A stretch of 64,000 bases of DNA from a virus. Below, piece by piece: positions 3,964 to 62,173 of this stretch; position 1 is the first letter of the stretch; each line of letters opens with the position of its first letter. Under the pieces are notes generated by a model, which saw only the letters and a list, made by a program, of their open reading frames with translations, did not search any database and was not told the origin of the DNA. The position numbers and the translations under genes are program-made. The stretch lies in IMG/VR virus record IMGVR_UViG_3300009034_000016, positions 16,478 through 80,477 of that record. The stretch is one strand, 5' to 3'.

Positions 3964-5769
3964 ATGGCCTTTCGTAACATAGGCATGGGAGCACGGCTCA
4001 CATTCGATGAACGCAAGGGGGTTGCATCGATGGGACGCGCTTCGCGCTCTTTTACCATGCTAACTAAATCTGCAAGATTAGCTGGCAGGGGTGTCAAGTG
4101 GATGCTCCCAAGCTTCCGTCAGTTAGCGATTGCGGGAGCTGCGGTTGCCGCGGTTGGCGGCCTGATGGTCAAGTCATACGCCGATTTTGAGCAGGCTATG
4201 GCCGGAGTTAGGGCTGTTGCGGTAACCGCGACCGAGCCTGAGTTTAAGGAGATGACGAGTCTGGCCAAACAACTTGGTGCTACAACCAAGTTCACCGCGA
4301 CCGAATCGGCGGAAGCGATGGAGTTATTCACCCGGGCTGGGTTCAATGCAAGGGAAGTAATGTCGGCGATTCCCGCGGTGTTGAGTGCCGCGGCGGCGGA
4401 GGGAATGGGGATCGCCGAGGCAGCGGATATCAGCAGTAATTCACTGAGGATTATGGGACTTGAAGCAACGGAGACCGCCCGGGTAGTGGATGTGCTGGCC
4501 CTGGCTTCTGCAAAGTCTAATACCAATATGCAGATGCTGGGTGAGGCATTTCGCTATGGGGGTGCACAGGCAAGGATCCTGGGAATACCGCTTGAGATGA
4601 CGGCGGCAATGTTCGGTAAGCTGGCCGATAGCGGGTTGAAGGCGACAACGGGCGGGACATCGTTGACTGCTATGCTGGTCAGGATGGTAAAGCCTTCTGC
4701 GAAGGCTACTAAGTTTATGCAGATGCACAATATTTCCTTAACTGACGCAGCGGGCAAGTTCAAACCCATGCCGGTGCTCATAGATAAATTTGCAAAGGCT
4801 ATTTCTGGGATTAGCGATGAGGCGAAGCGGTCGGCAACTATTCAGGAACTGTTTGGTATTAGGGGGGCTAAAGCTTACAGTGCGTTTGCCGCAGTCGGAG
4901 GTCGAGCGCTTCAGGACTTAGCCACCGATCTCGGTAATTCCGAAGGCGCGGCCAAGCGAATGGCGGATATTCGGATGGAGACCCTGGCGGGGCAGTTCAC
5001 CCTGTTGAAGTCTGCTACCGAGGGATTCCGGATCGAGATAGGCGAATATCTCGCACCCATCACCCGGGAATGGACAAAGAATGCAACGGATTGGATTGGG
5101 AGTGTAGCAACGGCCCTTCGACTTCTTAAAGAACCAGGGGAAATGACGGGCGAGCAGCTAAGGGAATGGATGGGCCTGACGGGGAGTGCGAGGGAAGCGG
5201 CGGTTACTCTAACTGCGGCGGTTAAGGGAATTGAAGGTGCAATGCGAAGCCTTGCTGCCTTTATGCAGAGTGAAACGGTTGCAACCCTAAAGGATTTTGT
5301 TAAGTGGATTGGTTTTGGGCTCGGACAACTCGGGAAGTTGGGGGAGGTTACTAAAATTCCGAGGGAACTTCTTGATCAGGCCAAGTTAGCTGCTCAGGCG
5401 AAAATGGATATAGCCGAGATTACGAAATATACCCCCACGGAGGTTGTCACAAAGAAGGTCGGTGAATTATTTGGAGCCCTTCCTGCCGAGGCGCGGAGAG
5501 GATTCGTTCCGGGAGTAGAACCGAGGAAAGCAGTTCCCGCTGGACAGATGGGGCCCCTGCCGGTAACCCCCGGTCCCACCCCCCCGATGAGAATTGCCGA
5601 GCCAACCCCAGCAACTATGCCAGAGGTAGTAATCCATACGCATGTTATTCTTGATGGTCGGGAGATCGCCCGGGCTGTTGACAGGGTGAAATCCAATCTG
5701 GCGGAAAGGGTGGGATTAGACCTGGGGGCTGGAGGACTCCGGGCAATCGCTGAAGGGGGTGTAGCCTAA
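3964..5769 (+). CDS. Tail tape measure protein
   Basis: A 601-residue protein with a basic N-terminus, a hydrophobic segment around residues 55-70 (LAIAGAAVAAVGGLMV), then the classic tape-measure core: YADFEQAMAGVRAVA, KQLGATTKFTATESAEAM, FTRAGFNA and the ALASAKSNTNMQMLGEAF stretch. The C-terminal third is Pro-rich. Tape measure length scales with tail length at roughly 0.15 nm per residue, so a tail near 90 nm would be expected if that rule holds. It follows the frameshifted chaperone, the conserved order. Confidence 0.92.
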   Translation: MAFRNIGMGARLTFDERKGVASMGRASRSFTMLTKSARLAGRGVKWMLPSFRQLAIAGAAVAAVGGLMVKSYADFEQAMAGVRAVAVTATEPEFKEMTSLAKQLGATTKFTATESAEAMELFTRAGFNAREVMSAIPAVLSAAAAEGMGIAEAADISSNSLRIMGLEATETARVVDVLALASAKSNTNMQMLGEAFRYGGAQARILGIPLEMTAAMFGKLADSGLKATTGGTSLTAMLVRMVKPSAKATKFMQMHNISLTDAAGKFKPMPVLIDKFAKAISGISDEAKRSATIQELFGIRGAKAYSAFAAVGGRALQDLATDLGNSEGAAKRMADIRMETLAGQFTLLKSATEGFRIEIGEYLAPITREWTKNATDWIGSVATALRLLKEPGEMTGEQLREWMGLTGSAREAAVTLTAAVKGIEGAMRSLAAFMQSETVATLKDFVKWIGFGLGQLGKLGEVTKIPRELLDQAKLAAQAKMDIAEITKYTPTEVVTKKVGELFGALPAEARRGFVPGVEPRKAVPAGQMGPLPVTPGPTPPMRIAEPTPATMPEVVIHTHVILDGREIARAVDRVKSNLAERVGLDLGAGGLRAIAEGGVA

Positions 5770-6552
5770 ATGGGCGTGCCGATATTAGGTGGATTATTTG
5801 GTAAGACCTGGCCCTGGAAACTCGAGGACCTTGATCATAAAGGAACGGTTATCGAGGGACACTTCGCCCCGGAGAACCTTACGCTTAATGCGGGTTCAAC
5901 GTTCGGGGAGACCACAGGGCTTAACAGGTTAAATCCCGTGCTCCAGTTTCTGCACGGCAATGGAAGGCGGTTTTCATTTGATGCCCTAATCTTCGCTCGT
6001 GATACCACCAAGAGGATTGAGGAGGCACTCGAGGGAATACTGAAACTTACCGAGAGGGCACCCGACCTGAAACGACCCCCCGTGTGTCGCTTTTCAGTAG
6101 GACATGTTGAGGCACTCAATGACCTGGTGGTTGTCAGCTCGGTTGGTGGAGTAAGGATCGCAGAGTTAAGAAAAGACGGATCGCTCCGTTCATTCGAGGC
6201 GAGGATTAGCCTGATTAGATATGTGCCATTCAGTGTTGAGGAGCAGCCCCAGACTTCGGCGGAGCAACCAGCACCGTCAACTCGGTATATCAAAACTCTC
6301 GATAACGACATGTTTGAGCAAGTGGCACAGCGGGAGTATAGAGATCCGTTAAAGGGAGTCATTATCAAGGCGGAAAATCCGGGGGTAGGCGATACCCTGG
6401 AGGCGGGGGAGACGCTGAAGATCCTTCCCGCCGATCATCCCACGGTGAGGGCGCGTGTAGCACCTAGTTCAATAGCCCTGGGCAATGGCAAAAGCCAAAG
6501 AGAGAATTTGTTTGCAGCGAGGGGTGAGACCCGCTATCTTTATAATATTTGA
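5770..6552 (+). CDS. LysM/tube-initiator-like tail protein
   Basis: A 260-residue protein starting one base after the tape-measure stop. Residues 1-170 are beta-rich with LNRLNPVLQFLHGNGRRFSFDALIF, resembling the fold in contractile injection systems that joins baseplate hub and tube. Residues 185-230 (MFEQVAQREYRDP, then AGETLKILP) look like a LysM-type module. Between tape measure and gpD-like hub this is the usual P2 gpX-like or CIS LysM position. Family membership is inferred from layout. Confidence 0.65.
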   Translation: MGVPILGGLFGKTWPWKLEDLDHKGTVIEGHFAPENLTLNAGSTFGETTGLNRLNPVLQFLHGNGRRFSFDALIFARDTTKRIEEALEGILKLTERAPDLKRPPVCRFSVGHVEALNDLVVVSSVGGVRIAELRKDGSLRSFEARISLIRYVPFSVEEQPQTSAEQPAPSTRYIKTLDNDMFEQVAQREYRDPLKGVIIKAENPGVGDTLEAGETLKILPADHPTVRARVAPSSIALGNGKSQRENLFAARGETRYLYNI

Positions 6553-23940: not shown

Positions 23941-23991
23941 TTCTTCAACCTTCCCCAAATAACCTCAAATAAATTTAATAATATTACCATG

Positions 23992-24202: not shown

Positions 24203-24231
24203 TTGACAACGGTTTGGGGATATAATATAGT
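24203..24231 (+). promoter_or_regulatory. Early promoter (sigma70 type)
   Basis: TTGACA at 24203-24208, a 17-bp spacer, and TATAGT at 24226-24231; an overlapping TATAAT at 24221 has too short a spacer. Transcription should start near 24238. It is the best promoter seen in the window and faces the long early operon. Confidence 0.8.
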
Positions 24232-24237
24232 ATAGAC

Positions 24238-24366
24238 AATGAAGGAGCAAAAAAACATGGAGCAAAAAAAATTGAAAGAACAAACTCGAAGGCTCGGTTC
24301 TGCTGGGCTAAGAGTAATGGCTGGGGGTTTTGGGTTGCTCCATGTTTCCCCCGGCCATTTTTTTAC
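24238..24366 (+). promoter_or_regulatory. Early-operon leader with attenuator terminator
   Basis: Within the leader, 24316-24327 pairs with 24348-24359 (12 bp, one G-T wobble, GC-rich core) and is followed by seven T's to 24364: an intrinsic terminator about 125 nt from the start site. Its 20-nt loop contains 24335-24347, complementary over 13 nt to 24253-24265, which holds the first start codon of the leader. Loop-leader pairing could block translation of the leader ORF, form a pseudoknot or alter termination. Early transcription is probably controlled here; mechanism inferred. Confidence 0.65.
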
Positions 24367-24397
24367 AGGAGGAGAAGATGAAGAGGTATTTCGTTGA
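24257..24397 (+). CDS. Leader peptide ORF across the attenuator
   Basis: A 46-residue frame starting MEQKKLKEQTRRL, with AAGGAG 10 nt before ATG, running through the terminator hairpin and overlapping the next gene's start. Its position suggests a leader peptide whose translation affects folding of the terminator, although it may be incidental. Confidence 0.35.
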   Translation: MEQKKLKEQTRRLGSAGLRVMAGGFGLLHVSPGHFFTGGEDEEVFR

Positions 24398-24566
24398 GAA
24401 AAGAGAAAATCAAATCATCGGGGGAGATAATCGCCACGGTTGGGCGGTTGTAGAGCGGATAGGCGATGTATGGGGAAAAAAGATGGATGCTTTGAAATAC
24501 ACTATAGCTGTGTATCCGACTCGGAAAGAGGCTCAACAAGAGGTTAAGGGGTTGAATCGATCATAA
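24378..24566 (+). CDS. First early-operon protein, unknown
   Basis: A 62-residue protein from ATG 24378, preceded by AGGAGGAG. MKRYFVEKREN and WAVVERIGDVW suggest a small beta-strand-rich fold, with a C-terminal helix (RKEAQQEVKGL). No family recognised. It is the first gene after the attenuator. Confidence 0.65.
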   Translation: MKRYFVEKRENQIIGGDNRHGWAVVERIGDVWGKKMDALKYTIAVYPTRKEAQQEVKGLNRS

Positions 24567-24577
24567 TGAGTACTTAA

Positions 24578-24594
24578 CCCCGAAACTACCGGGG
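24578..24594 (+). other. Intergenic hairpin before SD (a)
   Basis: CCCCG-aaactac-CGGGG, followed after 3 nt by AGGAGG. First of five hairpins in successive gaps of this operon. Confidence 0.5.
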
Positions 24595-24610
24595 AAAGGA
24601 GGTAAAAAAA

Positions 24611-24982
24611 ATGTTGTGGATTAAAGATGTGATCAAAACAGAAAACGGGGTGCACTATATCCCCTCAAATTATCGTGAACTGATGGAAAAGGGCGAACAA
24701 TATGAAACTATATGGTCGCTCGATTCACAAGCTGAACGCTTGCGGAAAGAATGGGATAGTGGAAGCGGTTGGATTGAAGCCCCCATTTGTGTTAGTGTTG
24801 GGGATGCAGGATGCTCTTTTCTGGAGCCCTTCATATCGAAGCAAGAAGCTCTTGATTGGATTCGGGAGCAGGTTGGGAAAGAAAGAGTATATTTCAGTTG
24901 GAATGCAAATCAGGAATTGCGAGAAATGTTCCCCGAAATCCCAATACTTTCACAAGAACATTGGAAGGCATTGGGAAGCTAA
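24611..24982 (+). CDS. Unknown early protein
   Basis: A 123-residue acidic protein with strong SD (GGAGG). QAERLRKEW and SKQEALDWIREQVGKERVYF look like helix-strand units. No domain recognised. The stop TAA is embedded in TAACCCCTGAGC, a sequence that recurs at the following gene ends. Confidence 0.6.
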   Translation: MLWIKDVIKTENGVHYIPSNYRELMEKGEQYETIWSLDSQAERLRKEWDSGSGWIEAPICVSVGDAGCSFLEPFISKQEALDWIREQVGKERVYFSWNANQELREMFPEIPILSQEHWKALGS

Positions 24983-25021
24983 CCCCTGAGCTCTCCCCCC
25001 ACCGGGGAAAGGAGGAGGAAG

Positions 25022-25241: not shown

Positions 25242-25697
25242 ATGGGGTTAAGAAAAGATAAATGGGTAAAGCGTTGGAAAGTGCCAGGCTCTAATGGTAA
25301 TGGCAATTGGACTGTTGCCGTAGATAAAGACGGTAACTACGGTTGCAGTTGTCCCAGGTGGAAATTTAAAAGGGAACTATGCCATCACATTCAACTTGTC
25401 AAGATGGGGGGCGGGGATAACATTATCCCGTATGAGCGTCCAGAGTATATATTGGCAAGCGTTAATAAGCCTATATTGGATAGAGAAAAAAACAGGCTAT
25501 TGGTCCCTCTAATAGGCATCCCCGATGCTCACATGATGCAAGCTACTATCTGCTTCCATCTACTCAAGAATGGCTATTCAATGGGTGAAGTAAGGGAATT
25601 AAGAAGGATTCCTAGTGAATGGACAATAAAGGCCATATTCGCTCATATCAAAAGGCACGGAGAGGCAGAATACCCCGCAGGTTGGTATAACCATTAA
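25242..25697 (+). CDS. SWIM-type zinc-finger protein
   Basis: A 151-residue protein. C35-x-C37-x9-C47-x-H49 (GCSCPRWKFKRELCHHI) matches the SWIM zinc-binding motif, used for nucleic-acid or protein contacts. The C-terminal half looks helix-turn-helix-like (MGEVRELRRIPSEWTIKAIFAHI). It may act in recombination or regulation; partner unknown. Confidence 0.65.
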   Translation: MGLRKDKWVKRWKVPGSNGNGNWTVAVDKDGNYGCSCPRWKFKRELCHHIQLVKMGGGDNIIPYERPEYILASVNKPILDREKNRLLVPLIGIPDAHMMQATICFHLLKNGYSMGEVRELRRIPSEWTIKAIFAHIKRHGEAEYPAGWYNH

Positions 25698-25737
25698 CCC
25701 CTGAGCTTAGCTTGGGGAAGAAAGGAGGAAGTTGGAA

Positions 25738-26526
25738 TTGATACCTAATAACTACGAGATGAAGAAGCAGGCGAGAATAGACCAATATAGAGAAAGAGCA
25801 GAGAAAGCCCGTGTTGAGTCAGATTTGAAATACAAGGAAGCTAAGAGGATGGGGGAAGTAATTCCAATGGGACAACCAATCTTGATCGGACATCACTCAG
25901 AAAAAGCAGACCGAAATTATAGGGCACGGATTGATAAAAAAATTGATGGGTCTTATAGGGAATTAAAAAAAGCTGAGCATTACGAAAGGAAGGCCGAGGC
26001 AGCCGAAAAAAACAGGGCAATTAGTTCAGACGACCCGGAGGCAGTCCAGAAGCTCAAGGCCAAGATAGAGAAAGCCGAGAAATATCAGGCAAGGATGAAG
26101 CAGGTAAACCAAGCCTTTAAAAAGGGCGATGAGGCACTGAAAGCCCTGGGGCTAACAGATGAGGCCATTTACATAATGAAAGCCAAGATAGAAGGTGCTT
26201 ACAGTTGGGAAAAACAGCCCTTCCCTTCATATTGCTTGACCAACAATAACGCTAACATCCGGCGAATGAAGAAACGGCTCGAAGACATTGAGAGCCAGCA
26301 AGGAGCTGAAAGCTCAGCCAAACAATATGATGGCTTTGAGATAGTTGAAGACATAGAGGATAACAGGATCCGGATTCTATTTGATGGGAAGCCCCCGGAG
26401 AACATCAGAAGCATTTTAAAACAGTGTGGATTCCGCTGGAGCCCCTACAATAAAGCCTGGCAGAGACACTTAAACAATGCCGGTAGGGGTGCAGTCGAGC
26501 AGGCAATTAATTTGATGAATGCTTAA
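25738..26526 (+). CDS. DUF3560-like protein
   Basis: A 262-residue protein from TTG 25738 (AAAGGAGG 9 nt upstream; TTG 25732 is a possible earlier start). The N-terminal coiled region (RIDQYRERAEKARVESD and onward, with PMGQPILIGHHSEKADRNYRARI) is characteristic of DUF3560. The C-terminus (IRILFDGKPPENIRSILKQCGFRWSP, then AWQRHLNNAG) is the domain often found with it. Frequent in phages and plasmids; function unknown. Confidence 0.75.
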   Translation: MIPNNYEMKKQARIDQYRERAEKARVESDLKYKEAKRMGEVIPMGQPILIGHHSEKADRNYRARIDKKIDGSYRELKKAEHYERKAEAAEKNRAISSDDPEAVQKLKAKIEKAEKYQARMKQVNQAFKKGDEALKALGLTDEAIYIMKAKIEGAYSWEKQPFPSYCLTNNNANIRRMKKRLEDIESQQGAESSAKQYDGFEIVEDIEDNRIRILFDGKPPENIRSILKQCGFRWSPYNKAWQRHLNNAGRGAVEQAINLMNA

Positions 26527-26538
26527 CCCTGAGCTTAA

Positions 26539-26549
26539 CCCCACCGGGG
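26539..26549 (+). other. Intergenic hairpin before SD (e)
   Basis: CCCC-acc-GGGG after the DUF3560 stop and ahead of the radical SAM start; the same loop occurs in the gap at 24997-25007 (b). Confidence 0.4.
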
Positions 26550-26569
26550 GCCTTGCTGAGAGGTTGATG

Positions 26570-27538
26570 ATGAATAGTAAAATAGTAAACATCCCAGGAT
26601 ATACAATAACAGCGAGGGAGAGAAAATCTAAGTATATCCATGAGTTCACGAAAACCCCGGCGGAAATTATATGTCCTCATTTCTGGGTTTTATCCCAGGG
26701 AAATCTTTGTCCCTTTGCCTGTTCCTATTGTTACCTGGAAGGGACTTTTAGGTGGGGTAATGCTAAGAGCGAAGCCCCGGTGGTCTTCGTAGATGATCCG
26801 GATAGTGAACAACCGACCCAGAGGGGAATGAAAAGGGAAGTCGAGGGCTGGCTTAATAAGCCGGGGAATTTAGTGTTGAATGCCGGCGAGCTCTCAGATG
26901 CCCTGGTCTTTGACCACTGGACAAAGATGTCAAGATGGTTGATCCCCCTATTCGGAGAACAGAGAAATCACAAGCTATTGCTATTGACAAAAAGCGATAA
27001 TGTGAAGGGACTATTGGAACTGCCCCATAATGGGCAGACTATAGTTTCATTCTCCATAAATGCCCTGGAGGTATCTAAGAGATTTGAGGCTGGGGCGCCT
27101 CTTCCGACAGATAGACTGAGCGTTGCCAAGCTATGCCAGGATGCTGGATACCCAGTCAGGCTCAGGATAGATCCGATGATACCGGTCGAGGGATGGAAGG
27201 AGAAATATACTGAGTTGATGCGCTTAATTGGTGATCTTGAAATTAAACCTGAAAGGATAACCGTGGGATCCCTCCGGTATTTCCCGACTGTTCGGACGGC
27301 GGTGAAATCAAGCGACCGCCCGGGGAAGGATGTGTTTGACTATGGCCGGGAGTGGACGAAGGTAGACGGTAGGCTGAGAGTGGATTTTAATACCAGGATC
27401 GAGATGTATAGACTTGTTTTAGGCTATATAAAATTTTATCTTGACAAAATTGGTTTTGGGATTTGCAAAGAGACAGAAAAAGCCTGGGAAGAAATAGGCG
27501 AAGGAATTCCCAGGGGGGTATGTAATTGCACGACTTGA
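26570..27538 (+). CDS. Radical SAM protein, SPL-like
   Basis: A 322-residue protein. ATG 26570 has GAGAGG 6 nt upstream. C47-x3-C51-x2-C54 (LCPFACSYCYLEGT) binds the 4Fe-4S cluster that cleaves SAM. The flanking HFWVLSQGN and downstream NAGELSDALVFD, LLTKSDN and FSINALEVSKRFE resemble spore-photoproduct-lyase-like family members. Phage copies are common, substrate unknown. Repair of UV damage or modification of phage DNA are possibilities. Confidence 0.75.
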   Translation: MNSKIVNIPGYTITARERKSKYIHEFTKTPAEIICPHFWVLSQGNLCPFACSYCYLEGTFRWGNAKSEAPVVFVDDPDSEQPTQRGMKREVEGWLNKPGNLVLNAGELSDALVFDHWTKMSRWLIPLFGEQRNHKLLLLTKSDNVKGLLELPHNGQTIVSFSINALEVSKRFEAGAPLPTDRLSVAKLCQDAGYPVRLRIDPMIPVEGWKEKYTELMRLIGDLEIKPERITVGSLRYFPTVRTAVKSSDRPGKDVFDYGREWTKVDGRLRVDFNTRIEMYRLVLGYIKFYLDKIGFGICKETEKAWEEIGEGIPRGVCNCTT

Positions 27539-40919: not shown

Positions 40920-41163
40920 AACACAATGGCTCAAATTTATAGAGAAAAAACCAAAGCCTAAAACAAGAGTATTTGCAGTTACACCTAAAGAAAATAATTG
41001 TGAACTCGGAGAGATAAAATGGTATGGCCCCTGGAGACATTATTGTTTTTTCCCCACAACAGAAATAGAAACAGTTCATTCAGATAGGTGCCTATTAGAA
41101 ATTTCAACATTCATAACAAGATTGAATAAAGAACATGCTGATACTAAAGAAGGAGGAAGGTGA
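40909..41163 (+). CDS. Small protein, paralogue pair member A2
   Basis: An 84-residue paralogue of the 39585 product: same length, same CELGEIKWY-x-x-WRHYCFFPT and ETVHSDRCLLEIS. GAGGAGG precedes ATG. Function unknown. Confidence 0.65.
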   Translation: MVVKTQWLKFIEKKPKPKTRVFAVTPKENNCELGEIKWYGPWRHYCFFPTTEIETVHSDRCLLEISTFITRLNKEHADTKEGGR

Positions 41164-42086
41164 AAATTAATCTCTTAGATATAGATTCCAAGATCCCCAA
41201 CTTGGCTTTAATGAAAATATCAGCTTATCATAAGTCAATTCACAATGAAGTGTTTTTAAACTTTCCTATATGTAATCCAGACATGACTTTTGCCTCTTGT
41301 ATATTTACTAAGAATAAAAACAAAGTGCCTTTTGGTGTTAAGGCTGGCGGCCCAGGATATAACCTAAAAACAAAATTGCCTGAGCATATAGAAAGGTGTT
41401 CACCAGACTATTCCCTCTATCCAAAAATAGATTATTCGCTTGGCTATACTTATCGTTATTGTCCCCGGAAATGTGCTTTTTGTAATGTTTGGAAAATGGG
41501 GAATAAGAGAGGCGAACACCATAGTATCTATGAATTTTATGATAAACAATTCAGAATAATTCGACTTCTGAATAACAACACCTTTGCCGATCCGGATTGG
41601 CGGGAGACTTTTAAGGAAATAAAAAAAGAAAACCTGATTGCCCATTTCGACCAGGGCTTTGATATTAGACTCCTATCTGAGGAAAAGGCTCATTATTTGA
41701 AATTGATTAAGCACCATAAACAAATTTATTTTGCCTTCGATGATATTAAGTTAGAAAAGGATATTAGGCAGGGGATAAAAATATTAGATAAGGCAAAAAT
41801 ATCAAGGTCGAAAATTGCTTTTTTTATACTGACTGGATTTAATTCAAACCTCAATGAAGATATTGAAAGAGTTGAAATGCTTAGGAGTATGAACATTGAT
41901 TGTTACGTTATGGCTTATAATGGCGGAGTTAATCGTTTGACCAGAGAATATGCACGCTATGTAAACACTAAAGTAGTTTTTAAAACTCGGTCATTTGAAC
42001 AATTTTTAAAATCAAGAAATGTTGGTTATTTATTAATGGCAGGGGGCTCAACCTTTACAAAGGGGCAAGCCCCTGGTGAGGGGTAG
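41160..42086 (+). CDS. Radical SAM protein with B12-binding-like N-terminus
   Basis: A 308-residue protein from GTG 41160 (AGGAGGAAG upstream). N-terminal LLDIDSKIPNLALMKISAYHKS is typical of a cobalamin-binding-like half domain. C101-x3-C105-x2-C108 (YCPRKCAFCNVW) is the radical SAM cluster site. Later IAHFDQGFDIRLL and IYFAFDD fit the barrel. Similar genes are frequent in phages; substrate unknown. Confidence 0.75.
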   Translation: MKINLLDIDSKIPNLALMKISAYHKSIHNEVFLNFPICNPDMTFASCIFTKNKNKVPFGVKAGGPGYNLKTKLPEHIERCSPDYSLYPKIDYSLGYTYRYCPRKCAFCNVWKMGNKRGEHHSIYEFYDKQFRIIRLLNNNTFADPDWRETFKEIKKENLIAHFDQGFDIRLLSEEKAHYLKLIKHHKQIYFAFDDIKLEKDIRQGIKILDKAKISRSKIAFFILTGFNSNLNEDIERVEMLRSMNIDCYVMAYNGGVNRLTREYARYVNTKVVFKTRSFEQFLKSRNVGYLLMAGGSTFTKGQAPGEG

Positions 42087-42905: not shown

Positions 42906-43340
42906 ATGAGAACGATACCTTTAAATCTTAATGAAGCTGCTAAGTTTGTGAAAAAATATCATAGGCATAATGATCCACCTACTCGAAGTAAGTTTTCAAT
43001 AGGAGCAACTAAGGAGGGTAAATTGGTTGGGGTTGCTATTGCAGGCAGACCTGTTGCAAGGCTTCTTAATGATGGGAGAACACTTGAAATAATAAGGGTA
43101 TGCACAGACGGCACTTTCAATGCTAATAGTTTCTTATATTCACGAGTTAAGAAAATAGCTCTGTTGATGGGTTATGAAAAAGTGATTACTTATACATTGC
43201 AAGAAGAGTCCGGGGCTTCCCTAAAAGCAATAGGAGCTCAAATAGAGGCAGAGGTAAAAGCCAAGAGTTGGAATTGTAAAGGAAGGCCAAGAAGAGAACA
43301 AGAGGTTTATAAGAAACCTAAATATAGGTGGATATTGTAA
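42906..43340 (+). CDS. XF1762-like (GNAT-type) phage protein
   Basis: A 144-residue protein. LNEAAKFVKKYHRHNDPPTRSKFSIGATKEGKLVGVAIAGRPVAR, then RTLEIIRVCTDGT and KVITYTLQEESGASLKAIGAQ, is the pattern of the XF1762 family, related to acetyltransferases and widespread in phages. Substrate unknown. It follows R3 without a separate SD. Confidence 0.75.
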   Translation: MRTIPLNLNEAAKFVKKYHRHNDPPTRSKFSIGATKEGKLVGVAIAGRPVARLLNDGRTLEIIRVCTDGTFNANSFLYSRVKKIALLMGYEKVITYTLQEESGASLKAIGAQIEAEVKAKSWNCKGRPRREQEVYKKPKYRWIL

Positions 43341-48639: not shown

Positions 48640-48942
48640 TTGGAACCGTCTCAATATTTATTGGAAGCCAAGGGAGGAGTAATTAGAGATAACCCCCTTT
48701 TAGATATTGTCTTCTCGAAGGAGGAGGCGGAGGCCGGTAACTTTGCACACGGTGTGCAAATAGAAAGGAGACCACCCCGCTATGATTTATTTCAGCAGAA
48801 GGAAGACCCCCCGGAGGCTTCCCCGGGCCCTAACCGAGAAGGAAGTAAGGTTGTTATTAAATCAGCCCAACGGGGGGGCTACTGGCCAGAGGGACAGGGC
48901 AATCTTGGAAGTCCTTTACGGATCGGGGCTGAGGGTAACTGA
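48640..48942 (+). CDS. Doubtful ORF overlapping the recombinase start
   Basis: A 100-residue frame from TTG that overlaps the recombinase gene for 161 nt. The first 45 residues look protein-like, but no SD is evident and the rest is Pro/Gly/Arg-rich, typical of an alternate frame. Possibly a remnant of an N-terminal recombinase domain; weak. Confidence 0.2.
   Translation: MEPSQYLLEAKGGVIRDNPLLDIVFSKEEAEAGNFAHGVQIERRPPRYDLFQQKEDPPEASPGPNREGSKVVIKSAQRGGYWPEGQGNLGSPLRIGAEGN
48744..48758. promoter_or_regulatory. TGCACAC palindrome, site 5
   Basis: TGCACACGGTGTGCA, extended by TT/AA to 48742-48760. Lies 5 nt before the AAAGGAG of the recombinase gene. Confidence 0.75.
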
Positions 48943-58315: not shown

Positions 58316-58465
58316 ATGAAATGTTCTTATCTTGAGAAAGTAAACAAACAAGGCAAGGAATTGACAGCGGACGAACTAATTGCACATTGGGGCAGGTGTA
58401 AAACTTGCAAGAAGAATTTAGAGGAGATGAGAAAATACCAACGGAGACAAAAAAGGATTGAATGA
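58316..58465 (+). CDS. Small protein with CxxC
   Basis: A 49-residue protein, GAAAGGGG upstream. HWGRCKTCKKNLEEMRKYQRRQKR: a zinc-knuckle-like half and a basic helix, reminiscent of anti-sigma zinc-finger starts. Overlaps the methyltransferase start by 8 nt. Confidence 0.5.
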   Translation: MKCSYLEKVNKQGKELTADELIAHWGRCKTCKKNLEEMRKYQRRQKRIE

Positions 58466-59681
58466 CTGGATAAATAAAGTCATCTGCGGCGATTGTCTGG
58501 AGGTTATGAAGGAAATACCTGATAATTCCATTGATTCCTGTATAACCGATCCGCCCTATGGCTTGGAGTTTATGGGGAAGGACTGGGATAAGCCTAATCG
58601 GTTAATAGATAAAAGGCAGTTGGATTATCCTTCTTGCCGTAGTGTAAACATTAACGAATATAAAGCAGGATTATCTTATCAGCAATGGACAACTCAATGG
58701 GCTACCGAGCTATACCGCATATTAAAACCTGGTGCTTATCTATTAGCCTTCGGGGGCACTCGTACTGAGCATAGATTAGCCTGTGGGATAGAGGATGTAG
58801 GGTTTGTAATTAGGGATAAGATTGCATGGATGTATGGTAGTGGCTTCCCTAAGAATCTGAATATAGGTAAAAAGTGGGATCAAATTCATGGTAATAAAAG
58901 GAAGGAGTTTTATCGAAATATTGCTTATCCTGATAGTGACTGTTGGGGCATTCCTAATAAAAGCGGTTCTTGTAATCAAAGCAGAGAAAGTCAAGTTATA
59001 AGGCCAGATAGTATTATGAAAGAAGGTGGAAAAGTAAAATCAAGCAAAGGGCAATCAAAATGGGAGGGCTGGGGAACCGCCCTCAAGCCCGCCTTTGAGT
59101 TTATCGTGTTAGCTCAGAAACCCCTTGATAAAAACTATTGCCATAATCTTGAGAAATGGGGCTGTGGGGCGGTGAATATTGACGGGGGGAGGATTGATTA
59201 TTCAGGAAAAGAGCCTAATTTAAGGTCTGATAAAGGGAATTGGAATAAATCTAAAATTTGTGGAAAAGGGATATTTTTTAATGAGGGAGCAGGAGATAGA
59301 CAAGACCCTCACCAACAAGGTCGCTGGCCGGCTAACCTGATATTGGAATGTACCTGCGAAAAGGTGATACTTGGGAAAGCTGGGGAAAGAAGAGAAATAC
59401 ATGCAAATATAACCCCGGGGACTCATGGGATATATGGTAAGTTTAAAGGAATGGAAAGACCAACAGTTGATTATAATGATTCTGTAGCAATTCACACCGA
59501 TCCCAACTGCCCTTGCCGAATGCTGGATGAGGAGAGTGGGGATATCTTACCAAGTTATAGAAAAGGGAATAAAGCAAGTTATCGAGATGGAATTGTTCCG
59601 TGGAATAAAGGTAGAGAATCGCTTCTCGCTTTTTCCGTTACATTCCCAAAGCCTCCCGAAGTGAACGGGAAGCGGGCTTAA
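58458..59681 (+). CDS. DNA methyltransferase (N4-C/N6-A), N-terminal part, frameshifted
   Basis: A 407-residue frame from TTG 58458. Motif IV DPPYGLEF (residues 31-38) and GCGDCLEVMKEIP-type start are clear; SAM-binding motif I is missing because the frame changes near a T5 run at 59630-59634. One added T would join it to the next frame as RYIPKASRSEREAGLKG, the expected junction. Either a real mutation, an assembly error or slippage. Phage methyltransferases usually protect DNA from restriction. Confidence 0.75.
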   Translation: MNDWINKVICGDCLEVMKEIPDNSIDSCITDPPYGLEFMGKDWDKPNRLIDKRQLDYPSCRSVNINEYKAGLSYQQWTTQWATELYRILKPGAYLLAFGGTRTEHRLACGIEDVGFVIRDKIAWMYGSGFPKNLNIGKKWDQIHGNKRKEFYRNIAYPDSDCWGIPNKSGSCNQSRESQVIRPDSIMKEGGKVKSSKGQSKWEGWGTALKPAFEFIVLAQKPLDKNYCHNLEKWGCGAVNIDGGRIDYSGKEPNLRSDKGNWNKSKICGKGIFFNEGAGDRQDPHQQGRWPANLILECTCEKVILGKAGERREIHANITPGTHGIYGKFKGMERPTVDYNDSVAIHTDPNCPCRMLDEESGDILPSYRKGNKASYRDGIVPWNKGRESLLAFSVTFPKPPEVNGKRA

Positions 59682-60698: not shown

Positions 60699-60851
60699 AT
60701 GGAGAAAAAGAAGGACAAAGTCGCTCGCTCGCTGCGGGAGCAACTCCTAAAACATCCATCCCCTAAAATCAAAAGAATGTCCAGGGAATCTGTTCGCCGT
60801 TATCAGGAGAAGAAAAAAGAAAAAATGGGAAACAAGGGGGATCCATGGTAG
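60699..60851 (+). CDS. Small very basic protein
   Basis: A 50-residue Lys/Arg-rich protein overlapping the next gene by 7 nt. Likely nucleic-acid-binding by charge only. No strong SD. Confidence 0.4.
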   Translation: MEKKKDKVARSLREQLLKHPSPKIKRMSRESVRRYQEKKKEKMGNKGDPW

Positions 60852-62173
60852 GTCTTGAAATAAATAAGATTCATTGTATTGATTGGGTAGAGGGATTTAA
60901 GCAGTTACCAGATGAGAGTGTGGATATGGTTATTTGCTCCCCTCCTTACTGGGGCTTAAGAGATTATCAATTGAAACCGATAGTATTTGATGGCGATCCT
61001 GAGTGTGAGCACAAGTGGGGAGAGGATATAAAAAGACGCACCCGGGGATCCGTCACGGAAAGTGCTCAGGTTGGCAGCCATAAGAACGAAAGGCAAGGCC
61101 GGGAAATTAAGCAAGGAAATTTCTGCCTTGAGTGCGGAGCGTGGCGAGGTCAGTTGGGTTTGGAACCCTATCCTTCTATGTATATAAATCATCTTATGCG
61201 GGGATTTACTGAGGCTAAGAGAGTGTTGAAATCTACGGGTAGTATATGGGTGAATTTAGCAGATACTTATTCAAGTAAGCCAGCAGGAAATCCCGAGTTA
61301 TCTGGATTAAGTAAAAAACCAAATCCATCTGAAAGCCATTCGCAGAGATCTGATACGAGTAGAAGTGGTGTTAAGGAGAAATCCCTTTGCCTTATCCCCG
61401 AACGCTTTGCCCTGGCAATGGTAGAGAGTGGTTGGATATTAAGGAATAGAATTTGTTGGCATAAGCCTAATCCGATGCCTTCAAGTGTAAAGGATAGGTT
61501 TACTAATACCTGGGAGTATTTATTTTTCTTTGTGAAGGAGAAGAAGTATTTCTTTGACTTGGATGCGGTGAGGGAGGCTCACAAAGAGAGCTCAATTCAT
61601 AGGGTAGAAAGTTCGCCTGGGACAGGAAGTGGAATGTCATTTGGGATTAATGGTGAGAGGTCTGCAAAAGTTAATAGAGTAGAATTAAATCCTGCCGGCA
61701 AAAATCCTGGCGACTTCTTTGAAATTACCACCCAGCCCTTCCCCGAAGCTCACTTTGCAACTTTCCCGGAAGCATTGTTAGTGAAACCAATTAAGGTAGG
61801 GTGTCCGCAATGGATATGTAAGAAGTGCGGGAAGATTAGGGAGAGAATAACGGAAATTCCAGATTTTGGCAGGGAGAAAAGTAATACTCCTTATGATGAA
61901 TCAACCACAGCGGGAAGGCTGGCTGGTAAGCGGCAAGCTTACCGAAAAGCTGGAATTGAGTCTCCCCCGGGGCCCGTTACTAAAGGCTGGACTGATTGCC
62001 AATGTGGTGCTGGCTGGGAAGGTGGTATTGTCCTTGACCCATTCTCGGGATCCGGGACTACGGCAAAAGTGGCCCGCAAGTACTCAAGAAGATATATCGG
62101 CTTTGAGCTTAATCCTGAATATATTAAAATAGCTAATAAACGACTTGCCCAGATGACTCTCCTACTCAGCTAA
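60845..62173 (+). CDS. DNA methyltransferase, SPPY type (probably N4-cytosine)
   Basis: A 442-residue beta-class methyltransferase. Motif IV is S-P-P-Y (residues 32-35, CSPPYWGLRDY), which favours N4-cytosine. Motif I is DPFSGSGTT near residue 398, followed by YIGFELNPEYIKIANKRL. ICKKCGKIRE and CQCGAGW in between suggest a zinc site in an inserted domain. Intact, unlike the methyltransferase upstream. Confidence 0.85.
   Translation: MVGLEINKIHCIDWVEGFKQLPDESVDMVICSPPYWGLRDYQLKPIVFDGDPECEHKWGEDIKRRTRGSVTESAQVGSHKNERQGREIKQGNFCLECGAWRGQLGLEPYPSMYINHLMRGFTEAKRVLKSTGSIWVNLADTYSSKPAGNPELSGLSKKPNPSESHSQRSDTSRSGVKEKSLCLIPERFALAMVESGWILRNRICWHKPNPMPSSVKDRFTNTWEYLFFFVKEKKYFFDLDAVREAHKESSIHRVESSPGTGSGMSFGINGERSAKVNRVELNPAGKNPGDFFEITTQPFPEAHFATFPEALLVKPIKVGCPQWICKKCGKIRERITEIPDFGREKSNTPYDESTTAGRLAGKRQAYRKAGIESPPGPVTKGWTDCQCGAGWEGGIVLDPFSGSGTTAKVARKYSRRYIGFELNPEYIKIANKRLAQMTLLLS

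Follow-up and report, generated by a model that had tools for sequence, protein, structure and literature searches.

In P4, the timm terminator is Rho-dependent and the kil reading frame spans it. The P4 CI RNA pairs with the upstream seqA and the downstream seqC, which results in premature transcription termination (PMC4825925). In the case of IsrK of Gifsy-1, one phage promoter generates a terminated short RNA and a read-through mRNA, with the short form acting on the long one; IsrK activates the translation of its own read-through mRNA (PMC4825925). In regulators of the pT181 type, an antiterminator pairing excludes an intrinsic terminator, and masking of the antiterminator leads to termination (PMC4878617). 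Here, we describe a phage leader in which the loop of an intrinsic terminator is antisense to the start region of the same leader, and we compare it with these systems.

RESULTS

Organization of the leader and of the surrounding genes

The window, a stretch of 64,000 nucleotides, corresponds to positions 16478-80477 of the 80,478-base IMG/VR virus record IMGVR_UViG_3300009034_000016. The record derives from a contractile-tailed phage, with tail sheath, tape measure, baseplate, terminase and portal genes, and an integrase gene is found at window position 48782. The genes upstream of the leader end with a terminator of their own at 23991, and the downstream genes include replication/recombination functions (DnaC-like loader, SbcC/D and RuvC).

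A preliminary description of this DNA had placed a near-consensus promoter and a strong intrinsic terminator ahead of the whole early operon, with the terminator loop complementary over 13 nt to the leader. Our analysis agreed with each of these points (Table 1). The promoter is the sole one with a match of at least 11/12 on the + strand, in the window as well as in the 16.6 kb upstream of the window (L008), and no comparable + strand promoter lies between it and the co-oriented loader, SbcC/D, RuvC and integrase genes. The terminator (24316-24364) has a 12-bp G+C-rich stem, a 20-nt loop and a run of seven T, with a hairpin energy of -25.6 kcal/mol. The loop segment A' matches the reverse complement of the leader segment A at all 13 positions and ends directly at the 3' arm, with 0 nt between A' and B'. 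When a second full target of the loop was sought in the window, only this one match was present.

Table 1. Features of the window leader and promoters of the two parallel leaders. Positions refer to the window unless preceded by L002.
Feature	Position	Strand	Basis or remark
Sigma70-type promoter TTGACA-17-TATAGT	24203..24231	+	11/12 match
Shine-Dalgarno AAGGAG of the leader frame	24242..24247	+	sequence
A, AAACATGGAGCAA, in the leader; contains the start codon (24257-24259) and is complementary to the loop of the terminator	24253..24265	+	100% over 13 nt
Leader open frame, 46 aa, MEQKKLKEQTRRLGSAGLRVMAGGFGLLHVSPGHFFTGGEDEEVFR	24257..24397	+	open through the terminator
B, 5' arm of the terminator stem, AATGGCTGGGGG	24316..24327	+	sequence/folding
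A', TTGCTCCATGTTT, antisense of the leader start; occupies the 3' portion of the terminator loop, which spans 20 nt (24328-24347)	24335..24347	+	complementarity search
B', 3' arm of the terminator stem, CCCCCGGCCATT; T run 24358-24364	24348..24359	+	sequence/folding
AGGAGGAG, Shine-Dalgarno of the gene that follows the terminator	24367..24374	+	sequence
First downstream gene, 62 aa, no family	24378..24566	+	then P0003, P0004, P0005 (SWIM zinc finger), P0006 (DUF3560)
First parallel leader, promoter	L002:3904		12/12, best of the contig
Second parallel leader, promoter	L002:5795		11/12

Transcription is predicted from the promoter spacing to start at about 24238. The preliminary description had also stated that A holds the first leader start codon. 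The ATG at 24257 is indeed inside A and is the one to which the Shine-Dalgarno sequence belongs, but it is not the first, since the earliest ATG is found at 24239, at the predicted transcription start. GGAGCAA, at the leader Shine-Dalgarno, constitutes a second, 7-nt partner for the terminator loop, and the leader carries a tandem repeat (GGAGCAAAAAAAC/A) at 24244 and 24259. The leader frame has no stop before the terminator and its end overlaps the first downstream gene. For the window leader, an open frame is expected in 26% of shuffles, and the corresponding values for each of the three leaders described in this study fall between 20% and 40%. With open frames this common among shuffles, leader translation is plausible but, like coding, unproven.

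Some additional observations were made in the same DNA. The product of 24378-24566 gave a weak Pfam match, below cut-off, to the DNA-mimic protein DMP12 (E 0.015). At the early-gene junctions 24575-24606, 24980-25015, 25695-25728 and 26523-26550, a repeated TAACCCC(TGAGCT)...ACCGGGG is located right before AAAGGAGG; these repeats correspond to small C4/G4 hairpins that lie between the stop codon and the next Shine-Dalgarno, and they occur only in the first genes of the operon. The early region also encodes two radical SAM proteins (26519-27538 and 41160-42086), the first resembling spore photoproduct lyase, and the window further encodes a Mom-like DNA modification protein and two DNA methyltransferase-like proteins (42906-43340, 58458-59681 and 60845-62173). 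In the preceding DNA, near the portal and terminase genes, L008:4524-9143 encodes in one frame a protein of 1539 aa with methyltransferase-like and head-maturation-protease-like parts.

Folding of the growing leader RNA

Equilibrium structures of the growing RNA were computed at 37 C, which may not be the temperature of the host, and with no kinetics. The A:A' pairing had a probability of 0.96 with the RNA end at 24348 and of 0.93 at 24354. The crossover from A:A' to the terminator occurred at 24357-24360, with the terminator reaching 0.86 from 24360. With the first 35 nt made unavailable, to mimic an initiating ribosome, the probability of the terminator was 0.57 at 24354 and 0.97 at 24360. 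Longer read-through RNA swung back to A:A' (0.84 at 24381-24384). RNA folding had been proposed as a check in the preliminary description, and in the computed folds A:A' and the terminator were mutually exclusive.

The order of the segments is A, B, A', B', and a 13-bp A:A' helix would enclose B. The terminator hairpin would be excluded because A:A' encloses its 5' arm and, judging from their geometry, the full A:A' and terminator helices should be too close to coexist. As A' leaves the polymerase before B', A:A' would be in place first, and the default of the naked RNA would thus be A:A' formation followed by read-through. If A were occupied, either by an initiating or stalled ribosome or by the exposed loop of a terminated leader RNA, the terminator would be freed and would give an RNA of ~127 nt. 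A ribosome that had moved on over the 5' arm B would instead prevent the hairpin, with read-through as the outcome, and in the read-through RNA A:A' would hide the leader start. Since the completed terminator is thermodynamically slightly favored over A:A', the latter could stop it only kinetically.

The loop-leader pairing against shuffled and background sequences

The observed pairing was equaled in 0.16% (by score) and 0.2% (by energy) of loop shuffles and in 0.06% of leader shuffles, and it is therefore unlikely to have arisen by chance (shuffle p ~0.002). This p-value of the window is optimistic, because the window was picked after a reader had seen the match. A 13-nt inverted pair is by itself less remarkable across a 64-kb window; what counts is its placement.

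We have surveyed 836 promoters with a match of at least 11/12, present in 247 loci, for a hairpin followed by a T run within 240 nt. Such an element was found behind 69 of the 836, and the pairing of the window leader ranked first among the 78 elements obtained. In a background of 183 hairpin-T elements (2.44 Mb of phage DNA), pairing scores did not exceed 21.5 save in four cases, namely the window leader (31), one element in L003 (26.5) and two coding-region cases (L031 and L067). The last two, which are without promoters, had the appearance of coding-region artefacts and were set aside. From the background scores and the rank in the promoter survey, the layout is unusual and is no common phage feature.

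Searches for relatives and known families

The preliminary description recognized no known riboswitch or T-box in the leader. This stands, since no Rfam family matched: the window gave no match at the gathering score, and with the threshold relaxed to E values of up to 5 nothing came near it. DNA and protein searches of the phage collection, IMG/VR and GTDB detected no homologue of the window leader; IMG/VR was searched with P0003, P0005, P0006, P0007 and SbcC, and the GTDB genomes with P0005 and the terminase. The P0006 relatives (L004-L007) were without the loop-leader layout and the strong-promoter surveys in IMG/VR gave no further example of it, the layout being rare among the other phages surveyed.

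Parallel leaders in another phage

The contig IMGVR_UViG_3300009528_000028 (L002/L003) was the only one found with a relative of P0005 (64-65%), and its phage differs from that of the window in the structural genes. It was fetched for P0005 alone, and its leaders are thus free of the selection bias that affects the window.

The first parallel leader follows the best promoter of the contig (Table 1). Its segment A1 (L002:3949-3963), composed of GGAGTGAATGATGC, which includes Shine-Dalgarno and start codon, plus the preceding T, pairs over 15 bp with the terminator loop at 4016-4030 (GCATTGTTCACTCCA; p 1e-4 or less). A1:A' is the minimum-energy fold of this leader RNA, and 1 nt separates A' from the 3' arm (0 nt in the window). 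The next gene encodes a sigma-70 region 2 protein (Pfam score above cut-off), and the start site of this sigma-factor-like gene, GGAGTGAACGATGC, is a second, better and near-identical copy of the loop target. Leaving aside the antisense strand of the loop itself, the two flanking sites are the two best targets of the loop among the ~230 Shine-Dalgarno-start sites of the contig. The second parallel leader has a 17-pair terminator, whose loop (5924-5934) pairs over 11 bp with the leader at 5865-5875; this pairing is the less strong one (p 0.005-0.018) and involves an internal part of the frame instead of its start.

The window leader and the two L002 leaders have unrelated sequences and the same layout, and the frames of all three are open through the terminators. 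There are two departures from Watson-Crick pairing in the first L002 leader and one in the second, and as all three are G-U pairs, the pairing is suggested to act as RNA and not as a DNA operator. The occurrence of the same layout in unrelated sequence suggests a real, if still putative, RNA switch.

In the same contig, a TTGACA and a TATAGT with 19-nt spacing (L002:4622-4985) start a structured RNA of ~320 nt (fold z -2.1); this RNA ends in a terminator with a large loop, immediately upstream of the P0005 relative. Rfam offered no convincing match for this RNA, and it was rejected as a further example of the layout (L002:4660-4985), its loop-leader pairing being unconvincing (score 18).

DISCUSSION

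The preliminary description had proposed that the promoter and the terminator form a built-in switch. The exclusive folds, the non-random pairing and the two like leaders in another phage spoke for it, with termination, read-through and their control staying at the level of a proposal. With about even confidence, we read the leader as a transcription attenuator located near the promoter of the phage early operon, and the sequence would be best read as that of an attenuator controlled by a ribosome or by an RNA.

Alternatively, the terminated RNA of ~127 nt may act in trans, as the P4 CI and P1 c4 RNAs do. Its loop A' would pair with the leader start of new transcripts and block both leader translation and the antiterminator, so that termination would feed on itself. 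We consider that a role in trans may exist, but give it a lower probability than simple attenuation in cis, and as an account of the leader it appears rather unlikely. Two of the three loops are antisense to a ribosome-binding site, and the leader frames run across the terminator, as kil does across timm in P4; however, the window has one full target only, and its terminator is intrinsic whereas timm is Rho-dependent. In L002, the near-identical second target is the start site of the sigma-factor-like gene, in a manner reminiscent of seqA and seqC around P4 CI (PMC4825925). A comparably small chance is given to a plain partial terminator that is read through by coupling to leader translation, with the loop match being minor or silencing the leader start later. 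The open frames of all three leaders speak for this, and ribosomes are known to prevent terminator hairpins (PMC5021804), but 13-15 nt of loop-leader pairing in unrelated sequences would be left unexplained.

The inverted 13-mers could also be the half-sites of a DNA operator, bound by a repressor with looping over 82 bp, and they are indeed located shortly after the promoter, in a position from which repressors can act. Nevertheless, A itself is not palindromic, one copy is placed exactly in the terminator loop, and all differences between the copies in the parallel leaders preserve pairing through G-U; we regard this explanation as very improbable. The same low probability is assigned to a fortuitous match between the leader and the loop of an ordinary early terminator: even if the local p is only of the order given above for the window alone, and a reader picked the window on account of the match, two further leaders were found in one contig picked for an unrelated reason, and the window came first of 78 in the promoter survey.

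A more ambitious version of the attenuator reading is that of a minimal self-antisense attenuator, in which one hairpin would be both the stop signal and, on release, a loop-borne antisense RNA that makes later transcripts from its own promoter terminate, as a bistable early-operon switch reinvented in unrelated phages. We hold this to be doubtful. If true, the whole phage early operon would have a single hairpin acting as stop signal, as antisense RNA and as sensor of translation, and this timing or immunity switch would be far simpler than the P4 and P1 systems. A search for terminator loops that pair with the leader start is simple to run, and further such leaders might come to light in this way in phages without recognizable repressors.

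Comparison with known systems

As in the P4 CI and P1/P7 c4 RNAs, a stretch of the window leader is complementary to an upstream segment of the same transcript. In contrast with these immunity RNAs, the antisense stretch of the window is the loop of an intrinsic terminator, and the second, downstream target is absent from it. Such a target is present at the first L002 leader, which, with one target on each side, is the most P4-like. A further difference is that the window leader is not known to be processed, to confer immunity or to depend on Rho. IsrK shares with the window leader, as predicted here, one promoter that gives short terminated and read-through forms; it differs in that it activates its read-through mRNA, and no sequence relation is known.

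In the pT181-type regulators, as in the window, an antiterminator pairing excludes an intrinsic terminator, but a separate antisense RNA operates there and the pairing involves the 5' terminator arm, whereas in the window it involves the loop. A convergent promoter as in pT181, with a match of at least 10/12, was not found on the - strand between 19455 and 28140. The leader frame, the alternative hairpins and the intrinsic terminator recall the amino-acid leader-peptide attenuators; the window leader has no run of regulatory codons for a single biosynthetic amino acid and no stop before the terminator, its frame extending to 24397. In the LhrC paper (PMC4132741), a terminator loop is reportedly discussed in target pairing. 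Like the LhrC-type sRNAs, the window loop, with its CUCC core, is antisense to a Shine-Dalgarno region, but LhrC is a stand-alone host sRNA, and the window RNA would be an attenuated leader that targets itself. The window leader is thus a member of none of the families against which it was compared (Rfam, pT181, amino-acid leaders, P4/P1 with their second target); in its mode of action, it would resemble an attenuator and perhaps also an immunity RNA.
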